A DNA stretch of 64,000 nt, taken from contig NZ_BLJI01000003.1 in the NCBI RefSeq assembly GCF_017312365.1, positions 62,001 to 126,000 on the forward strand. Direction: 5' to 3'. The position numbers were made by a program, and so were the translations under genes. The stretch comes from Chroococcus sp. FPU101. GTDB lineage: Bacteria > Cyanobacteriota > Cyanobacteriia > Cyanobacteriales > Microcystaceae. This document shows positions 3,814 to 9,931 of the stretch, one piece after another. The notes beneath the pieces are model-generated. The model saw only the letters and a program-made list of their open reading frames with translations, did no database searches and was not told the origin of the DNA. Positions within the stretch are counted from its first letter, which is position 1. Each line of letters opens with the position of its first letter.

Positions 3814-6432
3814 TTAACTGACGAAAATATCTTCATAAGTCAAAGCTAAACCCACACTTAAAGTAGCAAACTGTATCGCTGCTGTTGTACCTGTTCCATC
3901 TCTGTCAAACAACAAGGCGCCCGTTCCAGAATTATAGATGAAACGGTGAGTAGAAGCAGTTGCCGATGTACCAATAATAAATTGATTTGACCTCAACACA
4001 TCAGTTGCAGTGAGTCCACCAGCAAAACCACTAGCCGAAACAACAATTAGATCATCATCTGGCGTAAAATCAGTAATGCGATCGATTCCTTGATTGGGAT
4101 TAGAGAAAGTGAATAGATCCGCATTTGCGCCACCTGTGAGAAGATCATTACCCAAACCACTGATAATCACATCGTTTTTACTTCTGCCAAGGATGACATC
4201 ATTACCATTAGTAGCAATTTGACGACGGGTACCATCATCATTAATAATGGTGGCTGTCACGGCTGATGCGGTTCCGACTGCATAACCTGTTCCCGTTGTC
4301 AAGGTTAAAGCTAAAGTTTCATTGGGTTCTATTGTGGTATCTCCAGTAGGGTTAATCACAAGATTCGCAGTAGCAGAACCCGCAGCAAAAGTTACTCTTC
4401 CAGTGGTAGAACTAAAACTCGTGGCACCTGTTTGTACATAGTCTGTCGTCAGTGTCGCGCTTTCAGACACATTAAAATTAACGACTAAAGAATTAGTTAA
4501 AGAACCTGTACGAGTGAACGTATAAGTAAAATTGGTGGGACTATTTTCACTAATGCCGCTATAGTCAAGAGCAAGAGTGACATTACTAGCAGTATCATCA
4601 TTAGTAATCGTTTCAGTGACTGCACCTGCTGTACCAATGGTGTAAGCTGCATTACTGGCTAGAGTTAAAGCTACAGTTTCATTCGGTTCTACGGTTGTAT
4701 CAGGTGTCGGGTCAACTGTTACCGTTGCAGTAGCCGAATTAGTTGCAAATGTTACATTTGTATCAATAGTACCGTAATCGATTCCGTTGGTTGCTGTTCC
4801 TGTAATTCCATAATTAACAGTTAAAGGATTGGTTAGAACACCTGTACGAGTGAAAGTGTAAACAAGATTGGCTGTACCATCTTCAGTAACACTAGATGGA
4901 GAGACTGCAAGAGTAATACTCGGTAAAGTTGAACCCGTTGCCTGTCCAAAAATCACATAGCTCTGTCCTGCAGAATTTAGGCCATTGGGGTCAGCACGAT
5001 TTGCACCAATAATAAGATCATCAAAACCATCATTGTTGATATCTCCCGCACTACTCACAGAAGAGCCTGAAATGTCGCCAGCATTAATCCCATTAATCGC
5101 AAAGCCGTTACTACCATTGAGGATGGAAAGGTTAAGACTAGCACCAAAGCCGCTACTTTTACCAAACACCACGTAGCTCTGTCCTACAAGGCTTATACTA
5201 TTGAAGTCGGCATTTGATGCACCGATAATGAGGTCATCAAACCCATCGTTGTTGACATCTCCCGCACTGCTTACAGAAACGCCTGAATGGTCATTAGTAT
5301 CAATCCCATTAATCGCAAAGCCGTTTGTTCCGTTAAGGGTAGAGAGGTTAAGACTAGCACCAAAGCCGCTACTCTTACCAAACACCACATAACTTTGTCC
5401 TGACTCTCTGCCATTGCGGTCAGCACCTGATGCACCGATAATGAGGTCATCAAACCCATCGTTGTTGACATCTCCCGCACTGCTCACAGATGTGCCTGAA
5501 AGGTCGTAAGCATTAATCCCATTAATAGTAAAGCCGTTAGTGCCATTGAGGGTTGAGAGGTTGAGACTAGAAATAAAACCGCCACTCTTACCAAACACCA
5601 CATAGCTTTGTCCTGATCTCGTACCATTAGGAGAGGCAAAAATTGCGCCGATAATAATGTCATCAAACCCATCGCCATTAATATCCCCCGCATTGCTCAC
5701 AGAAGTGCTTGAACGGTCATCAGCATTAATTCCATTAATCGCAAAGCCGTTAGTGCCGTTGAGCGTAGAAAGATTTATACTGGCACTAAACCCCCTACTT
5801 TTGCCAAACACCACATAGCTTTGTCCTGAATTTATGCCATTTGGGTCGGCAAGAAATGCGCCGATAATAATGTCATCAAACCCATCACCGTTGACATCTC
5901 CTACACTGCTCACAGAAGCACCTGAACGACTCCCATAAAGCCCATTAATCATAAAGCCGTTAGTACCGTTAAGAGTAGAAAGATTAAGACTAGAATTAAA
6001 GCCACCACTTTTACCAAATACCACATAGCTTTGTCCTGAAGTACTCAGATTGGGGTCAGCCCATGATGCACCGATAATAATGTCATCAAACCCATCACCA
6101 TTGATATCGCCCGCACTGCTCACAGAATAGCCTGAAAAATCACCAGCATTAATTCCATTGAGAGCAAAGCCGTTAGTGCCGTTAAGGGACGAAAGGTTGA
6201 GACTAGAACTAAAGCCACCACTTTTACCAAACACCACATAGCTTTGTCCTGTACTAATATTATTAGGTTTGGCTGATCGTGCGCCGATAATAATGTCATC
6301 AAATCCATCACCATTGACATCTCCTGCATTGCTTACAGAAGTGCCTGAATAGTCATTAGCATTAATACCATTAATCGCAAAACCATTCGTTCCATTAAGA
6401 GTAGAAAGGTTAAATACTGCTGGAAATGTCAT
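3814..6432 (-). CDS. FG-GAP propeller / Calx-beta / RTX-like extracellular protein
   Basis: The 872-residue acidic protein has seven FG-GAP (integrin-alpha-like) repeats over residues 1-495, each about 70 residues with LNGTNGF, a calcium-binding DVNGDGFDD loop and GQSYVVFGKS. Two Calx-beta domains follow (about 500-610 and 610-720; PSSVTEDGTANLVYTFTRTG and related), then an RTX-like segment NGNDVILGRS...GNDLLTGG and a C-terminal block found in many cyanobacterial large calcium-binding proteins. There is no N-terminal signal peptide, so export through a type I system with a C-terminal signal is likely. Seven repeats suggest a seven-bladed propeller used in adhesion or matrix binding; the ligand is unknown. 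ATG 6432 is preceded by an AGGAG site. The gene may share a transcript with the next gene upstream (6451-7530), 18 bases away. Confidence 0.85.
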   Translation of the reverse strand: MTFPAVFNLSTLNGTNGFAINGINANDYSGTSVSNAGDVNGDGFDDIIIGARSAKPNNISTGQSYVVFGKSGGFSSSLNLSSLNGTNGFALNGINAGDFSGYSVSSAGDINGDGFDDIIIGASWADPNLSTSGQSYVVFGKSGGFNSSLNLSTLNGTNGFMINGLYGSRSGASVSSVGDVNGDGFDDIIIGAFLADPNGINSGQSYVVFGKSRGFSASINLSTLNGTNGFAINGINADDRSSTSVSNAGDINGDGFDDIIIGAIFASPNGTRSGQSYVVFGKSGGFISSLNLSTLNGTNGFTINGINAYDLSGTSVSSAGDVNNDGFDDLIIGASGADRNGRESGQSYVVFGKSSGFGASLNLSTLNGTNGFAINGIDTNDHSGVSVSSAGDVNNDGFDDLIIGASNADFNSISLVGQSYVVFGKSSGFGASLNLSILNGSNGFAINGINAGDISGSSVSSAGDINNDGFDDLIIGANRADPNGLNSAGQSYVIFGQATGSTLPSITLAVSPSSVTEDGTANLVYTFTRTGVLTNPLTVNYGITGTATNGIDYGTIDTNVTFATNSATATVTVDPTPDTTVEPNETVALTLASNAAYTIGTAGAVTETITNDDTASNVTLALDYSGISENSPTNFTYTFTRTGSLTNSLVVNFNVSESATLTTDYVQTGATSFSSTTGRVTFAAGSATANLVINPTGDTTIEPNETLALTLTTGTGYAVGTASAVTATIINDDGTRRQIATNGNDVILGRSKNDVIISGLGNDLLTGGANADLFTFSNPNQGIDRITDFTPDDDLIVVSASGFAGGLTATDVLRSNQFIIGTSATASTHRFIYNSGTGALLFDRDGTGTTAAIQFATLSVGLALTYEDIFVS
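4947..6432 (-). repeat. seven tandem ~210-bp FG-GAP coding repeats
   Basis: The DNA coding for the propeller is a tandem array of seven units of about 207-216 bases with strong nucleotide similarity (recurring blocks coding GQSYVVFGKS and LNGTNGF). Units 1-4 carry a DxNGDGFDDIIIGA loop and units 5-7 carry DxNNDGFDDLIIGA, so the array has two sequence classes and probably grew by duplicating blocks of blades. Confidence 0.85.
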
Positions 6433-6450: not shown

Positions 6451-7530
6451 TTAAATTAATTGATTAGTAGTAAAATTCTCACCAATCGTTATTACCCGTC
6501 GTATTTCGTCACTTTTAAAGCCAATTGCCATCGGGCGACGCATTTTGGGCAAAACCACCACATCATAAAGTTCTTCGACTATTCCATCGATAGTCAAAGA
6601 ATGAACAATATCGCCTCTGTTTAAATCAATGACCAATAACCCACAACGAGCGCTCGCCTTCTGTTGCTCTAACTTTTCATTTAACAACAACCCTGAAAAG
6701 GTTTTATTTCCTCTCGGTTTCGACAAACCAACAATGGCAAAATCACCACTAAACGCCAGTCCCCGTAAATAACCAGGGCAAAACGCAACTGGAATAAATT
6801 CCCCTGAGTCTATCTCTAAATATCCAAATTCTCCAGTTCCCGAATTGTGTAACCAGAGTTTTTCTTGATAATATCTTGGTGAATGTGGCATCGATAACCC
6901 AGTAGCGATAATCTCGTTACTAATTACATCAATGACACAACCGCCCTGTTGTCTCTGTTCTCGCCACCCCTCAGCGAGATCACTTTGACTAACTGCTGTC
7001 ACATAGCGGGGTGTTCCATCTCGAATAGCAAGTCCATTGAGATGACATCTATCTTCGGCGGCTATCTTAGAAATAAAAGGAGGTTGCCACAGAGGGATAA
7101 AACTATGAGTAGGGGAAACGGTGGCTAAACAGCTAAACAGAGTATTGACAAAAATCAGTTCATCATTAACCAGTGTAATGTCGTGAATATCTAAATCCCC
7201 AGTCACATAACTTATTTGTGGGACATAAAAAACATCATAATCTTGATATACTTGCCCAGTTTCCAATGTATTTTCAAACCGCCAAAGCTGATAAAAGGTA
7301 CTGATATATAAGGAGTTATTTTGAGCATACAACCCCATACATCGATCTAAAGTTCGTTCAAATACAGAGAGTTGCCCACTCGGTTGTAAGCCAATAAAAA
7401 ATACTTTCCCTGCTTGATAGGTAGTAAAAGCAAGACTGAAATTTTGTTGGGCTAACCAGGGGACAAACTGCCGTGATGTATTGATTTCAAGCTTTTTATC
7501 ATGTTCTAAATTTGTTGTAAAATTCGACAT
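6451..7530 (-). CDS. TIGR03032-family protein
   Basis: A 359-residue soluble protein matching the TIGR03032 (DUF4915) family of beta-propeller-like proteins of unknown function. Recognised features are the N-terminal FVPWLAQQNFSLAFTTYQAG block, DRCMGLYAQNNSLYISTFYQLWRFEN around residue 75 and the central MPHSPRYYQEKLWLHNSGTGEFG block. The family is frequent in bacteria with surface polysaccharides or sulfotransferases, but no activity is established. ATG 7530 is chosen; the frame can be extended only to a TTG at 7554. It lies 18 bases before the FG-GAP gene on the same strand and may be expressed with it. Confidence 0.8.
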   Translation of the reverse strand: MSNFTTNLEHDKKLEINTSRQFVPWLAQQNFSLAFTTYQAGKVFFIGLQPSGQLSVFERTLDRCMGLYAQNNSLYISTFYQLWRFENTLETGQVYQDYDVFYVPQISYVTGDLDIHDITLVNDELIFVNTLFSCLATVSPTHSFIPLWQPPFISKIAAEDRCHLNGLAIRDGTPRYVTAVSQSDLAEGWREQRQQGGCVIDVISNEIIATGLSMPHSPRYYQEKLWLHNSGTGEFGYLEIDSGEFIPVAFCPGYLRGLAFSGDFAIVGLSKPRGNKTFSGLLLNEKLEQQKASARCGLLVIDLNRGDIVHSLTIDGIVEELYDVVVLPKMRRPMAIGFKSDEIRRVITIGENFTTNQLI

Positions 7531-7656
7531 TTTGACCTTTAATTTTTTACACAAGCCTTGATAGCTCTAATAAAACCATCGGCAAGCTAAGTATTTTCAA
7601 CTATAAATTTGTGATGTAGAAACAAAAAGCGCAATAAAATAAAAACTCATAAAAAG

Positions 7657-7686
7657 CGATGCTATCTATCATAAAATAGCATTTCG
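7657..7686 (-). terminator. probable rho-independent terminator
   Basis: Read on the minus strand, CGAAATGCTAT and ATAGCATCG form a stem with a ten-base loop, followed directly by CTTTTT. It would stop transcripts coming from the antitoxin and glycosyltransferase genes upstream (8010-9688) before they reach the TIGR03032 gene. Confidence 0.55.
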
Positions 7687-7864
7687 TTTTGAAAAAGGCT
7701 AATTTTTTATAAAATTTTAATTTAACGTATCGTTATTAAGAGTTGATTTGTTTTACTTAAGAAAAATTAGTGACGATTTTCTTCAAAAAACATTATAAAA
7801 TTTTATTGACTTTTTGATAAAAATGTGTTAAGGCTCTCTCCCTGCCTCTTTCCACCTCCCCTAG

Positions 7865-7882
7865 CCCCTCCTGAAGGAGGGG
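7865..7882. repeat. short GC-rich palindromic interspersed element
   Basis: CCCCTCC TGAA GGAGGGG forms a seven-base stem with a four-base loop in otherwise AT-rich spacer, preceded by CCCCTAG. This resembles the dispersed CCCCTAACCCCTCC...GGAGGGG repeats seen in many cyanobacterial intergenic regions. No second copy is in the window. Confidence 0.5.
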
Positions 7883-7997
7883 GATAAATGGAATTAATTT
7901 TATTAGTTGAGGGGTGCCAAAGGCGGGGTGAGGTCATTAAAGAAAATGCTTTTAATGATCAGATGCGGCTCTCAATACTCGTGCCGAAAATGAGGTG

Positions 7998-8028
7998 AGG
8001 TCATGAATAATTAACGTATTTCAGCATA
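7998..8028. repeat. 31-bp direct repeat, left copy
   Basis: Thirty-one bases are identical to 8397-8427. They contain the last five codons and stop (YAEIR, minus strand) of the glycosyltransferase gene plus its 3' flank. Homology continues weakly for about 18 more bases, which on the minus strand encode YLKHF here and YLKRF in the right copy. Confidence 0.9.
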
Positions 8029-8094
8029 AAAATGTTTTAGGTACGTTAGCTCATGAAGCTGGATGACTTCTACTTGAGTTAGATAACGAGTCAT
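8011..8094 (-). pseudogene. truncated Doc toxin start fused to a glycosyltransferase tail
   Basis: The 27-codon frame begins MTRYLTQVEVIQLHE, which looks like the N terminus of death-on-curing (Doc/Fic) toxins, then changes into TYLKHFYAEIR and stop, which is the C terminus of the neighbouring glycosyltransferase (VYLKRFYAEIR). Its ATG overlaps the antitoxin stop as ATGA, the usual coupling in antitoxin-toxin operons. The Fic motif and about 110 residues of a normal Doc are missing, so it cannot be an active toxin. The join was probably formed by a deletion between doc and a second glycosyltransferase copy. Doc identity rests on 15 residues and the partner gene. Confidence 0.6.
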
Positions 8095-8288
8095 GCTAAA
8101 CGTTGATAAAGCTCTGTATTTTTAGTTAAGACATAGTTAGCCGCCCGATTAAAGTCAGGTTGATTTTCCGTTAACCAATCATTGATTTTATCCTGTAAAA
8201 GATGCTCTAGGGTTACACCTTGCCGTTGCGCCAGTTCTTCTAACTGGTACAGTTTTTCGTCTGATAATTGAATGGTTAAGTTAGACAT
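8091..8288 (-). CDS. Doc-associated antitoxin-like DNA-binding protein
   Basis: A 65-residue protein with an N-terminal ribbon-helix-helix-like strand (LTIQLSDEKLYQLEELAQRQ) and the C-terminal NYVLTKNTELYQRLA block that I recognise from cyanobacterial antitoxins encoded just before doc genes. Such antitoxins repress their own operon and neutralise Doc, a kinase of elongation factor Tu. Here the antitoxin frame is intact but the toxin frame that overlaps its stop is truncated, leaving an orphan antitoxin. A remaining role in immunity to other Doc systems or in DNA binding is possible. Confidence 0.7.
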   Translation of the reverse strand: MSNLTIQLSDEKLYQLEELAQRQGVTLEHLLQDKINDWLTENQPDFNRAANYVLTKNTELYQRLA

Positions 8289-8396
8289 ATTTATTTTATT
8301 TTTGTGTCATAAGCTGTTGAATCTATTTTACAGTTCTCCATTAATTGCTAAACTCTCTTATTCTGAACTGACAATTTATTAAATGGCTTTTTTATA

Positions 8397-8427
8397 AGGT
8401 CATGAATAATTAACGTATTTCAGCATA
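8397..8427. repeat. 31-bp direct repeat, right copy
   Basis: Identical to 7998-8028, 399 bases away, and covering the native 3' end of the glycosyltransferase gene. The two copies flank the antitoxin gene and the chimeric remnant. Confidence 0.9.
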
Positions 8428-9141
8428 GAAGCGTTTGAGGTAAACGGGTGGAACGCCTAAACCCCAGAGAATGCCGATAAAAAGATAAATAAAAATTGCC
8501 TTAAATGGCCCCCAGTGAGCCACTCGACGATCGGACGATCGCACTGTACGATTAACCTGAGCGATCCTACCGTAGCGTATCAGTTTTTCGCATAGATCGG
8601 CTTCTTCCATAATGGGCCATGTTGAATCGAAGCCGCCGCAAGCTTGGAAGTCACAACGACGACAGAAAATCACCTGATCCCCGAATAACAGCCGTAAACC
8701 TTGGGAAAAGGCAATAGGACGAAATACGAAAGGGATCAAGTAAGTTTTAATCGTATTAAGAATTGTAAATTCCCAACGAGTGCGGGTTGTCCCCGTCATT
8801 AGTGAGATCAAACCACCCGCCGTAATAGTCGGATCGGCTAAAGTACGATCAATGATAGTGACCAGATCAGCAGGTACAAATGTATCGGCATGGATAAAAC
8901 ACAAAACATCACCTGTCGCTGCTTGTGCGCCTAAATTCATCTGTACCGAACGACCTTTCTGCGGAGAAATCATGACCGATATCGCTTCATTTTGAGCAAA
9001 TGCAACTGTACCATCTTGACTACCTCCATCGATGACAAAGATTTCCCAAGCAGGGGGATCTAAGATACTTAAGTTACGGAGAGTCTGTCTAATGGTAGTT
9101 GCTTCGTTCAAGGTTGGGATAATGATGGAAACACGAGTCAT
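8410..9141 (-). CDS. TIGR04283-family (arsenosugar-type) glycosyltransferase
   Basis: A 243-residue family 2 glycosyltransferase: SIIIPTLNEA at residues 5-14, DGGSQDGT at 38-45, the HAD metal-binding segment at 84-86, a GGFD...MEEADL acceptor motif near 185-200 and a C-terminal membrane helix near 215-235. The pattern fits the TIGR04283 family, whose members are often linked to arsenosugar biosynthesis genes, though no arsM or arsS is in view. ATG 9141 follows a GAGGA site; the longer frame from 9243 would overlap the upstream gene heavily and is rejected. Only ten bases separate it from the VKOR-like gene, so the two are probably co-transcribed. Confidence 0.82.
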   Translation of the reverse strand: MTRVSIIIPTLNEATTIRQTLRNLSILDPPAWEIFVIDGGSQDGTVAFAQNEAISVMISPQKGRSVQMNLGAQAATGDVLCFIHADTFVPADLVTIIDRTLADPTITAGGLISLMTGTTRTRWEFTILNTIKTYLIPFVFRPIAFSQGLRLLFGDQVIFCRRCDFQACGGFDSTWPIMEEADLCEKLIRYGRIAQVNRTVRSSDRRVAHWGPFKAIFIYLFIGILWGLGVPPVYLKRFYAEIR

Positions 9142-9151
9142 GTATTCCTCA

Positions 9152-9688
9152 TTACTGCGGATTGCTCTTAGCGGCTGTATCCTTTTCTGGGTATCCGAGT
9201 AGAGTACGACTAGCTGCCATGACTTCAGGTGCAGCGAGGACAATTGAAACCAAAGAGCAGAACGTTGCTACCTGACAATATTCACACAAGGCTTTGTTTT
9301 CGCTCCATTCCTCACCCGCTAATTGTACCGAAAGTATGCCATCAAACACCAGTTTTACACCCATCGCAATTGGGATCAATGGATTACGTCGCGCACGATC
9401 TAAACCACCCATTGAAGCTAACCAAGCAGTCAGAGCATAATTAACCACCATCAAGGGCCCATCTGGAGCGTTAAAACGTTTGTAAGCATAGTTAGAGGCA
9501 TCAACGCGATCGGCATCAAAAATAGGGACAGGTGGATCGGGTAAATGACTGATGACCCCCGTTTGGTACAGAGTAACCAGTTGTCCCATTGAGCCACCCA
9601 GCATAGATAGACCGATGATCCATCGCCGACGGGTCATGTGTGGGTCTTTTCCTTGACGTAGTTCTTGACTTAATTGTTTTGGTTCCAT
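9152..9688 (-). CDS. VKOR-like membrane protein with CXXC
   Basis: A 178-residue membrane protein with hydrophobic segments around residues 21-45, 80-95, 105-122 and 140-160. It has the redox-type CEYC motif at 135-138, at the start of the last helix, and a further Cys at 144, as in vitamin K epoxide reductase (VKOR) family proteins that reoxidise thiol-disulfide partners using quinone. The pair of loop cysteines of catalytic VKORs is not evident, so activity is uncertain. It starts with ATG 9688 after a GAGGCG site and precedes the TIGR04283 glycosyltransferase by ten bases, a pairing I regard as conserved in cyanobacteria. Confidence 0.7.
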   Translation of the reverse strand: MEPKQLSQELRQGKDPHMTRRRWIIGLSMLGGSMGQLVTLYQTGVISHLPDPPVPIFDADRVDASNYAYKRFNAPDGPLMVVNYALTAWLASMGGLDRARRNPLIPIAMGVKLVFDGILSVQLAGEEWSENKALCEYCQVATFCSLVSIVLAAPEVMAASRTLLGYPEKDTAAKSNPQ

Positions 9689-9931
9689 GTCGCCTCGATC
9701 CTAAAAGTCTATCTGGTTTGCCATCGCTCTTATGTTGCTGACTTTCAAGCTATCAGACGATCCTTTTTCTTTCTTCTGACTAAAGAATGAATTACTCAAT
9801 TCGTTTAACAATTCTTAATATTTTGAAAAACTTATGATATGCAAAAGCAATTTAAACGTCTAAACTGGTTCAAAAATTTATTTTAGCTGCATAATGATAG
9901 AGACAAGTTTTTGATAAACGGTGGATCATTT

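Follow-up and report, generated by a model that had tools for sequence, protein, structure and literature searches.

A reading frame of 27 codons in the cyanobacterium Chroococcus sp. FPU101 starts like the toxin Doc, ends like the C terminus of the neighboring glycosyltransferase, and lies directly behind an antitoxin gene, which raises the question of how such a frame came about and whether it has a function. The DNA analyzed here, referred to below as the window, is a stretch of 64,000 nucleotides (assembly GCF_017312365.1, contig NZ_BLJI01000003.1, positions 62,001 to 126,000, forward strand). The minus-strand gene order at the locus is a VKOR-like gene (9688-9152), the glycosyltransferase gene (9141-8410), an antitoxin gene of 65 codons (8288-8091), and the 27-codon frame (8094-8011). 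The features are as follows.

8410..9141, minus strand: intact glycosyltransferase gene, TIGR04283-type, family 2, 243 aa (NCBIfam TIGR04283 and orthologues)
8397..8442, minus strand: proximal repeat copy, covering the final 33 bp of the glycosyltransferase gene and 13 bp of its 3' flank (repeat comparison)
8091..8288, minus strand: antitoxin, 65 aa, ribbon-helix-helix-like (homologues followed by Doc; weak Pfam matches below cut-off; dN/dS)
8011..8094, minus strand: chimeric 27-codon frame, made up of doc codons 1-16, one junction codon, and 10 glycosyltransferase-tail codons
8044..8094, minus strand: doc-derived part of the chimeric frame plus junction; other doc genes are homologous as far as 8047
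7998..8043, minus strand: distal copy of the glycosyltransferase tail, 42/46 identical to the proximal copy; 31 bp exact at 7998-8028
7836..7934, no strand assigned: intergenic MITE-like element of dispersed type, immediately downstream of the rearranged region (copies in G000 on C9, C19, C1, and C24, and in the sister species G001)

The chimeric frame

The frame at 8011-8094 (minus strand) reads MTRYLTQVEVIQLHELTYLKHFYAEIR and overlaps the antitoxin gene (8091-8288, minus strand) by ATGA at 8091-8094; the antitoxin is intact and coupled to the frame in the way the earlier note described. The first 16 residues match the starts of Doc proteins encoded behind homologous antitoxins, for example MTRYLTQPEVLQLHEL in G011, and DNA homology with the G011 locus extends from 8299 to 8047, where it ends in doc codon 16. 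Adjoining it, at 8043, is the end of the copied glycosyltransferase tail. The final 10 residues, YLKHFYAEIR, match the glycosyltransferase C terminus, YLKRFYAEIR, and the pattern (x)LKxFYx(D/E)(I/V)R of that terminus is kept in relatives. The two-part description of the frame is thus borne out for both halves, at the level of residues and of DNA.

Antitoxin followed by toxin, the ATGA overlap, and a Doc N terminus in the first 16 residues are all shared with type II death-on-curing modules (TIGR01550, DOC_P1). Unlike those modules, the window locus lacks the HPFxDGNK catalytic stretch (HPFxDGNKR in full), only codons 1-16 of doc being left, and a foreign tail replaces the rest of the toxin. 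Judged by its sequence, the locus is a remnant of an antitoxin-doc module and would not function as a member of that class.

The earlier note named conservation of the frame as an independent small protein as something that would speak against its reading. This was looked for and is rejected: among 293 genomes of the order there is no homologue of the 27-residue product that spans both halves, and the DNA of the frame has no match over both halves in 50 genomes of the family. If translated by way of the ATGA coupling, the product would be a functionless by-product. The locus illustrates how a short frame with the start of one protein and the end of another can come into being without having a function.

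The antitoxin and doc in related genomes

Homologues of the antitoxin are present in 36 of 98 related genomes; some of them, up to 78% identical to the window antitoxin, are followed by Doc. A full, collinear doc gene overlaps or abuts the antitoxin stop in 14 of 30 antitoxin loci, whereas the others comprise 3 with doc interrupted or displaced by an insertion, 8 with a partial doc (the window included), and 5 in which none was found. Loss of the toxin beside a kept antitoxin is therefore common. For the window, the claim that the toxin was lost agrees with these intact counterparts and with the end of doc homology at 8047. Three of the intact Docs were scanned and scored 51 to 58 bits against TIGR01550 (cut-off, 38.65). 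The window antitoxin itself matches Pfam models weakly and below their cut-offs, with 15.8 bits for Antitox_RHH (cut-off, 27.2) and 13.8 bits for RHH_1 (cut-off, 20.5). The only other Doc gene in the Chroococcus genome is 40% identical and stands behind its own, different small gene.

The closest relative is G011, with an antitoxin 78% identical to that of the window. Its own doc gene breaks off near codon 53, where a repeat adjoins it, as against codon 16 in the window, so the two losses look independent. At another antitoxin locus (L064, in G006, 1425-1501), homology to doc extends through codon 17, to nearly the same point as in the window, and then gives way to an unrelated repeat containing GCGATCGC. 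At three further loci (L053, L057, and L061), insertions of about 130 to 220 bp either interrupt the doc gene of this family or separate it from the antitoxin.

Compared with the antitoxin of L037, the window antitoxin has a dN of 0.13 and a dS of 0.85, a dN/dS of about 0.15. This ratio is evidence of selection at some time, for the most part before the toxin was lost. It bears on the proposal that the fusion is a functional small protein, such as a peptide derived from Doc that modulates the antitoxin's autoregulation by binding to it. An antitoxin kept intact at this dN/dS and the retained ATGA coupling are what such a role would lead one to expect, but we consider it highly improbable, given that the fusion lacks any homologue in the 293 genomes and is missing the Doc catalytic region, and that the ratio was mostly shaped while doc was still present.

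Antitoxins orphaned by the decay of their pair are plentiful elsewhere: a Klebsiella survey counted 2253 of them, a group of Fic type being one of the two most frequently found without a partner (PMC7192599). The window resembles these degraded pairs in having an intact antitoxin and a destroyed toxin, and differs from them in that its truncation point coincides with the duplicated end of a neighboring gene. It is a neat yet ordinary case of toxin decay, and it provides a clear single-locus record of a toxin-antitoxin (TA) pair dying while the antitoxin stays.

The direct repeat and the duplicated gene tail

The two copies of the direct repeat, 7998-8043 and 8397-8442, are 46 bp long and identical at 42 of 46 positions (91%). 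They comprise the last 33 bp of the TIGR04283-type glycosyltransferase gene and 13 bp of its 3' flank. The 31-bp identity reported by the earlier note at the end of this gene and in its flank (7998-8028 and 8397-8427) is confirmed, with the refinement that homology goes on for another 15 bp at 11/15. A chance repeat is ruled out, the longest exact direct repeat being 16 in 200 order-1 shuffles of 6501-9700. A fold search at the distal junction revealed no unusual hairpin (z, -1.0), and a scan for promoters and terminators gave nothing clearly exceeding chance.

Mismatches between the two tails fall at 4 of 33 coding positions and at 0 of 13 noncoding positions. At all four, the proximal copy has G or C and the distal copy A or T, which together with the identical flank suits a young duplicate whose distal copy is decaying. 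All four are also confined to the 15 bp that adjoin doc (p of about 0.008, or 0.03 if a double change is taken as one event); plain decay, which is expected to be even, leaves this clustering unexplained.

According to the earlier note, the antitoxin-doc pair had lain beside two glycosyltransferase copies, and a deletion then killed the toxin. On this account, the pair would have lain between the copies, and one deletion would have taken most of doc together with nearly all of the second copy. One deletion does account for the fusion point, and three of the four tail differences are third-position changes, as between two copies that were once functional. However, the glycosyltransferase, which scores 202 bits against NCBIfam TIGR04283 (cut-off, 182) and has orthologues 55 to 73% identical in other cyanobacteria, is accompanied by a second, tandem copy in none of 98 glycosyltransferase loci. 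Furthermore, an identical noncoding flank beside a diverged coding part is the reverse of what old paralogues would show. We therefore regard the two-copy deletion as rather unlikely. None of the 97 other glycosyltransferase loci has a TA module of the antitoxin-doc kind nearby.

The simplest account left is that a single local rearrangement copied only the glycosyltransferase tail and killed doc, with no need of a second full glycosyltransferase gene; on balance, we think this is probably what happened. The starting point would be a type II TA module, with a ribbon-helix-helix-like antitoxin and a Doc toxin, now decayed and located just downstream of the TIGR04283-type glycosyltransferase gene. 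One event may have made the duplicate tail and killed doc together, by either of two routes: capture of an antitoxin-doc' fragment of about 353 bp with duplication of a target of about 46 bp, or template switching that returned from doc to the tail of the glycosyltransferase gene. It counts against the rearrangement that target duplications of 46 bp are unusual where no transposase is involved. With no working toxin, the antitoxin would be a remnant that could serve as an anti-addiction factor at most. Recombination between the short repeats, identical over 31 bp, would be able to remove a 399-bp unit without damage to the glycosyltransferase gene. No strain with the pre-insertion or the intact state was found, and hence the direction of the rearrangement and its number of steps are those we infer.

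The sister species

Relatives that keep the glycosyltransferase with comparable flanks were sought as an empty-site comparison, and none was found; the sister species, G001, has lost the gene. Its left side is collinear with the window to 7827 and then continues into a metal-resistance gene group, while collinearity on the right returns only at about 9518-9606, on a different contig, where a VKOR remnant is present and the glycosyltransferase is lacking. In that region (L163, on G001:C21, 4058-4161), only a remnant of the VKOR gene is present and the glycosyltransferase is absent. The earlier note held that relatives with no doc gene here would speak against loss of the toxin. G001 is literally such a relative, and it is uninformative: the glycosyltransferase is gone as well and VKOR is a remnant, so the ancestral state is not decidable from this genome. 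In the genus Chroococcus, the entire stretch tends to be lost.

Direct repeats around related modules

A third reading of the repeat is that the locus is what remains of an integrated element or TA cassette, with the 3' end of the glycosyltransferase gene as attachment site, the 31 bp as att core, and the imperfect 15 bp as the element's own arm. In keeping with this, only a 31-bp core at the 3' end of a gene is identical, and the distal copy diverges on its inner side; other TA loci of the antitoxin-doc family, and a parDE-like module of Microcystis aeruginosa (PMC7935541), are also located between direct repeats. Nevertheless, the 399-bp unit contains no integrase gene or remnant of one, only the antitoxin and the chimeric frame lying between the copies; the inner arm is itself glycosyltransferase-like (11/15); and the repeats at the other TA loci differ in sequence, several resembling IS or dispersed-repeat DNA. 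We consider an att-bounded element quite doubtful.

The Microcystis aeruginosa module is fenced by 152-bp direct repeats (PMC7935541). Like the window locus, it is a TA module just downstream of a gene and between direct repeats, in a related cyanobacterium, but it belongs to another TA family, and its longer repeats contain inverted repeats and are placed downstream of the gene, not within its end (PMC7935541).

Repeats were surveyed over about 1.4 kb on each side of the antitoxin, with a score of 28 or more counted. Direct repeats flank 8 of 29 antitoxin loci, or 6 of 27 once two near-identical Microcystis pairs are merged, compared to 4 of 140 control positions in 17 of the genomes with the TA family and 2 of 114 positions in other cyanobacteria. 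Flanking repeats are thus commoner at TA loci than at controls (Fisher p, 0.001; 0.005 without the window). The scores were produced by two programs that differ slightly, the controls were placed without matching for intergenic position, and some of the repeats plainly belong to dispersed families. The enrichment is a lead and no more. Should the pattern hold, it would point to a simple way in which TA modules could be gained and lost with no transposase involved.

An intact Microcystis antitoxin-doc module lies between 53-bp direct repeats (L166, 3640-3692 and 4578-4630; 46/53), with the differences clustered on one side. In the TA-less Microcystis strains G062 and G007, one repeat-like copy stands beside the same neighbor gene, and G032 has a shortened left-type copy. 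As empty sites these strains are suggestive only, in that their outer left flanks differ. No paper on TA modules flanked by direct repeats and with empty sites came up in a literature search. We can imagine, with little confidence, that small cyanobacterial TA modules of the antitoxin-doc family are gained and lost as cassettes bounded by short direct repeats (duplicated gene 3' ends in some cases), that excision leaves the host gene intact, and that the window shows a cassette caught after toxin loss.

Other repeats in the window

Further full or partial copies of the MITE-like element, about 100 bp long, occur in the Chroococcus genome and its sister species. The end of the element at 7836-7934 has a 27-nt similarity (78%) to the distal flank at 7981-8007. 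As a carrier of the TA module the element was rejected: it ends 63 bp before the distal repeat, and its other copies have no TA genes in the stretches inspected. Elsewhere in the window, at 3814-6432, a gene for an FG-GAP-repeat-like protein contains internal 213-bp DNA repeats and is collinear with the sister species.
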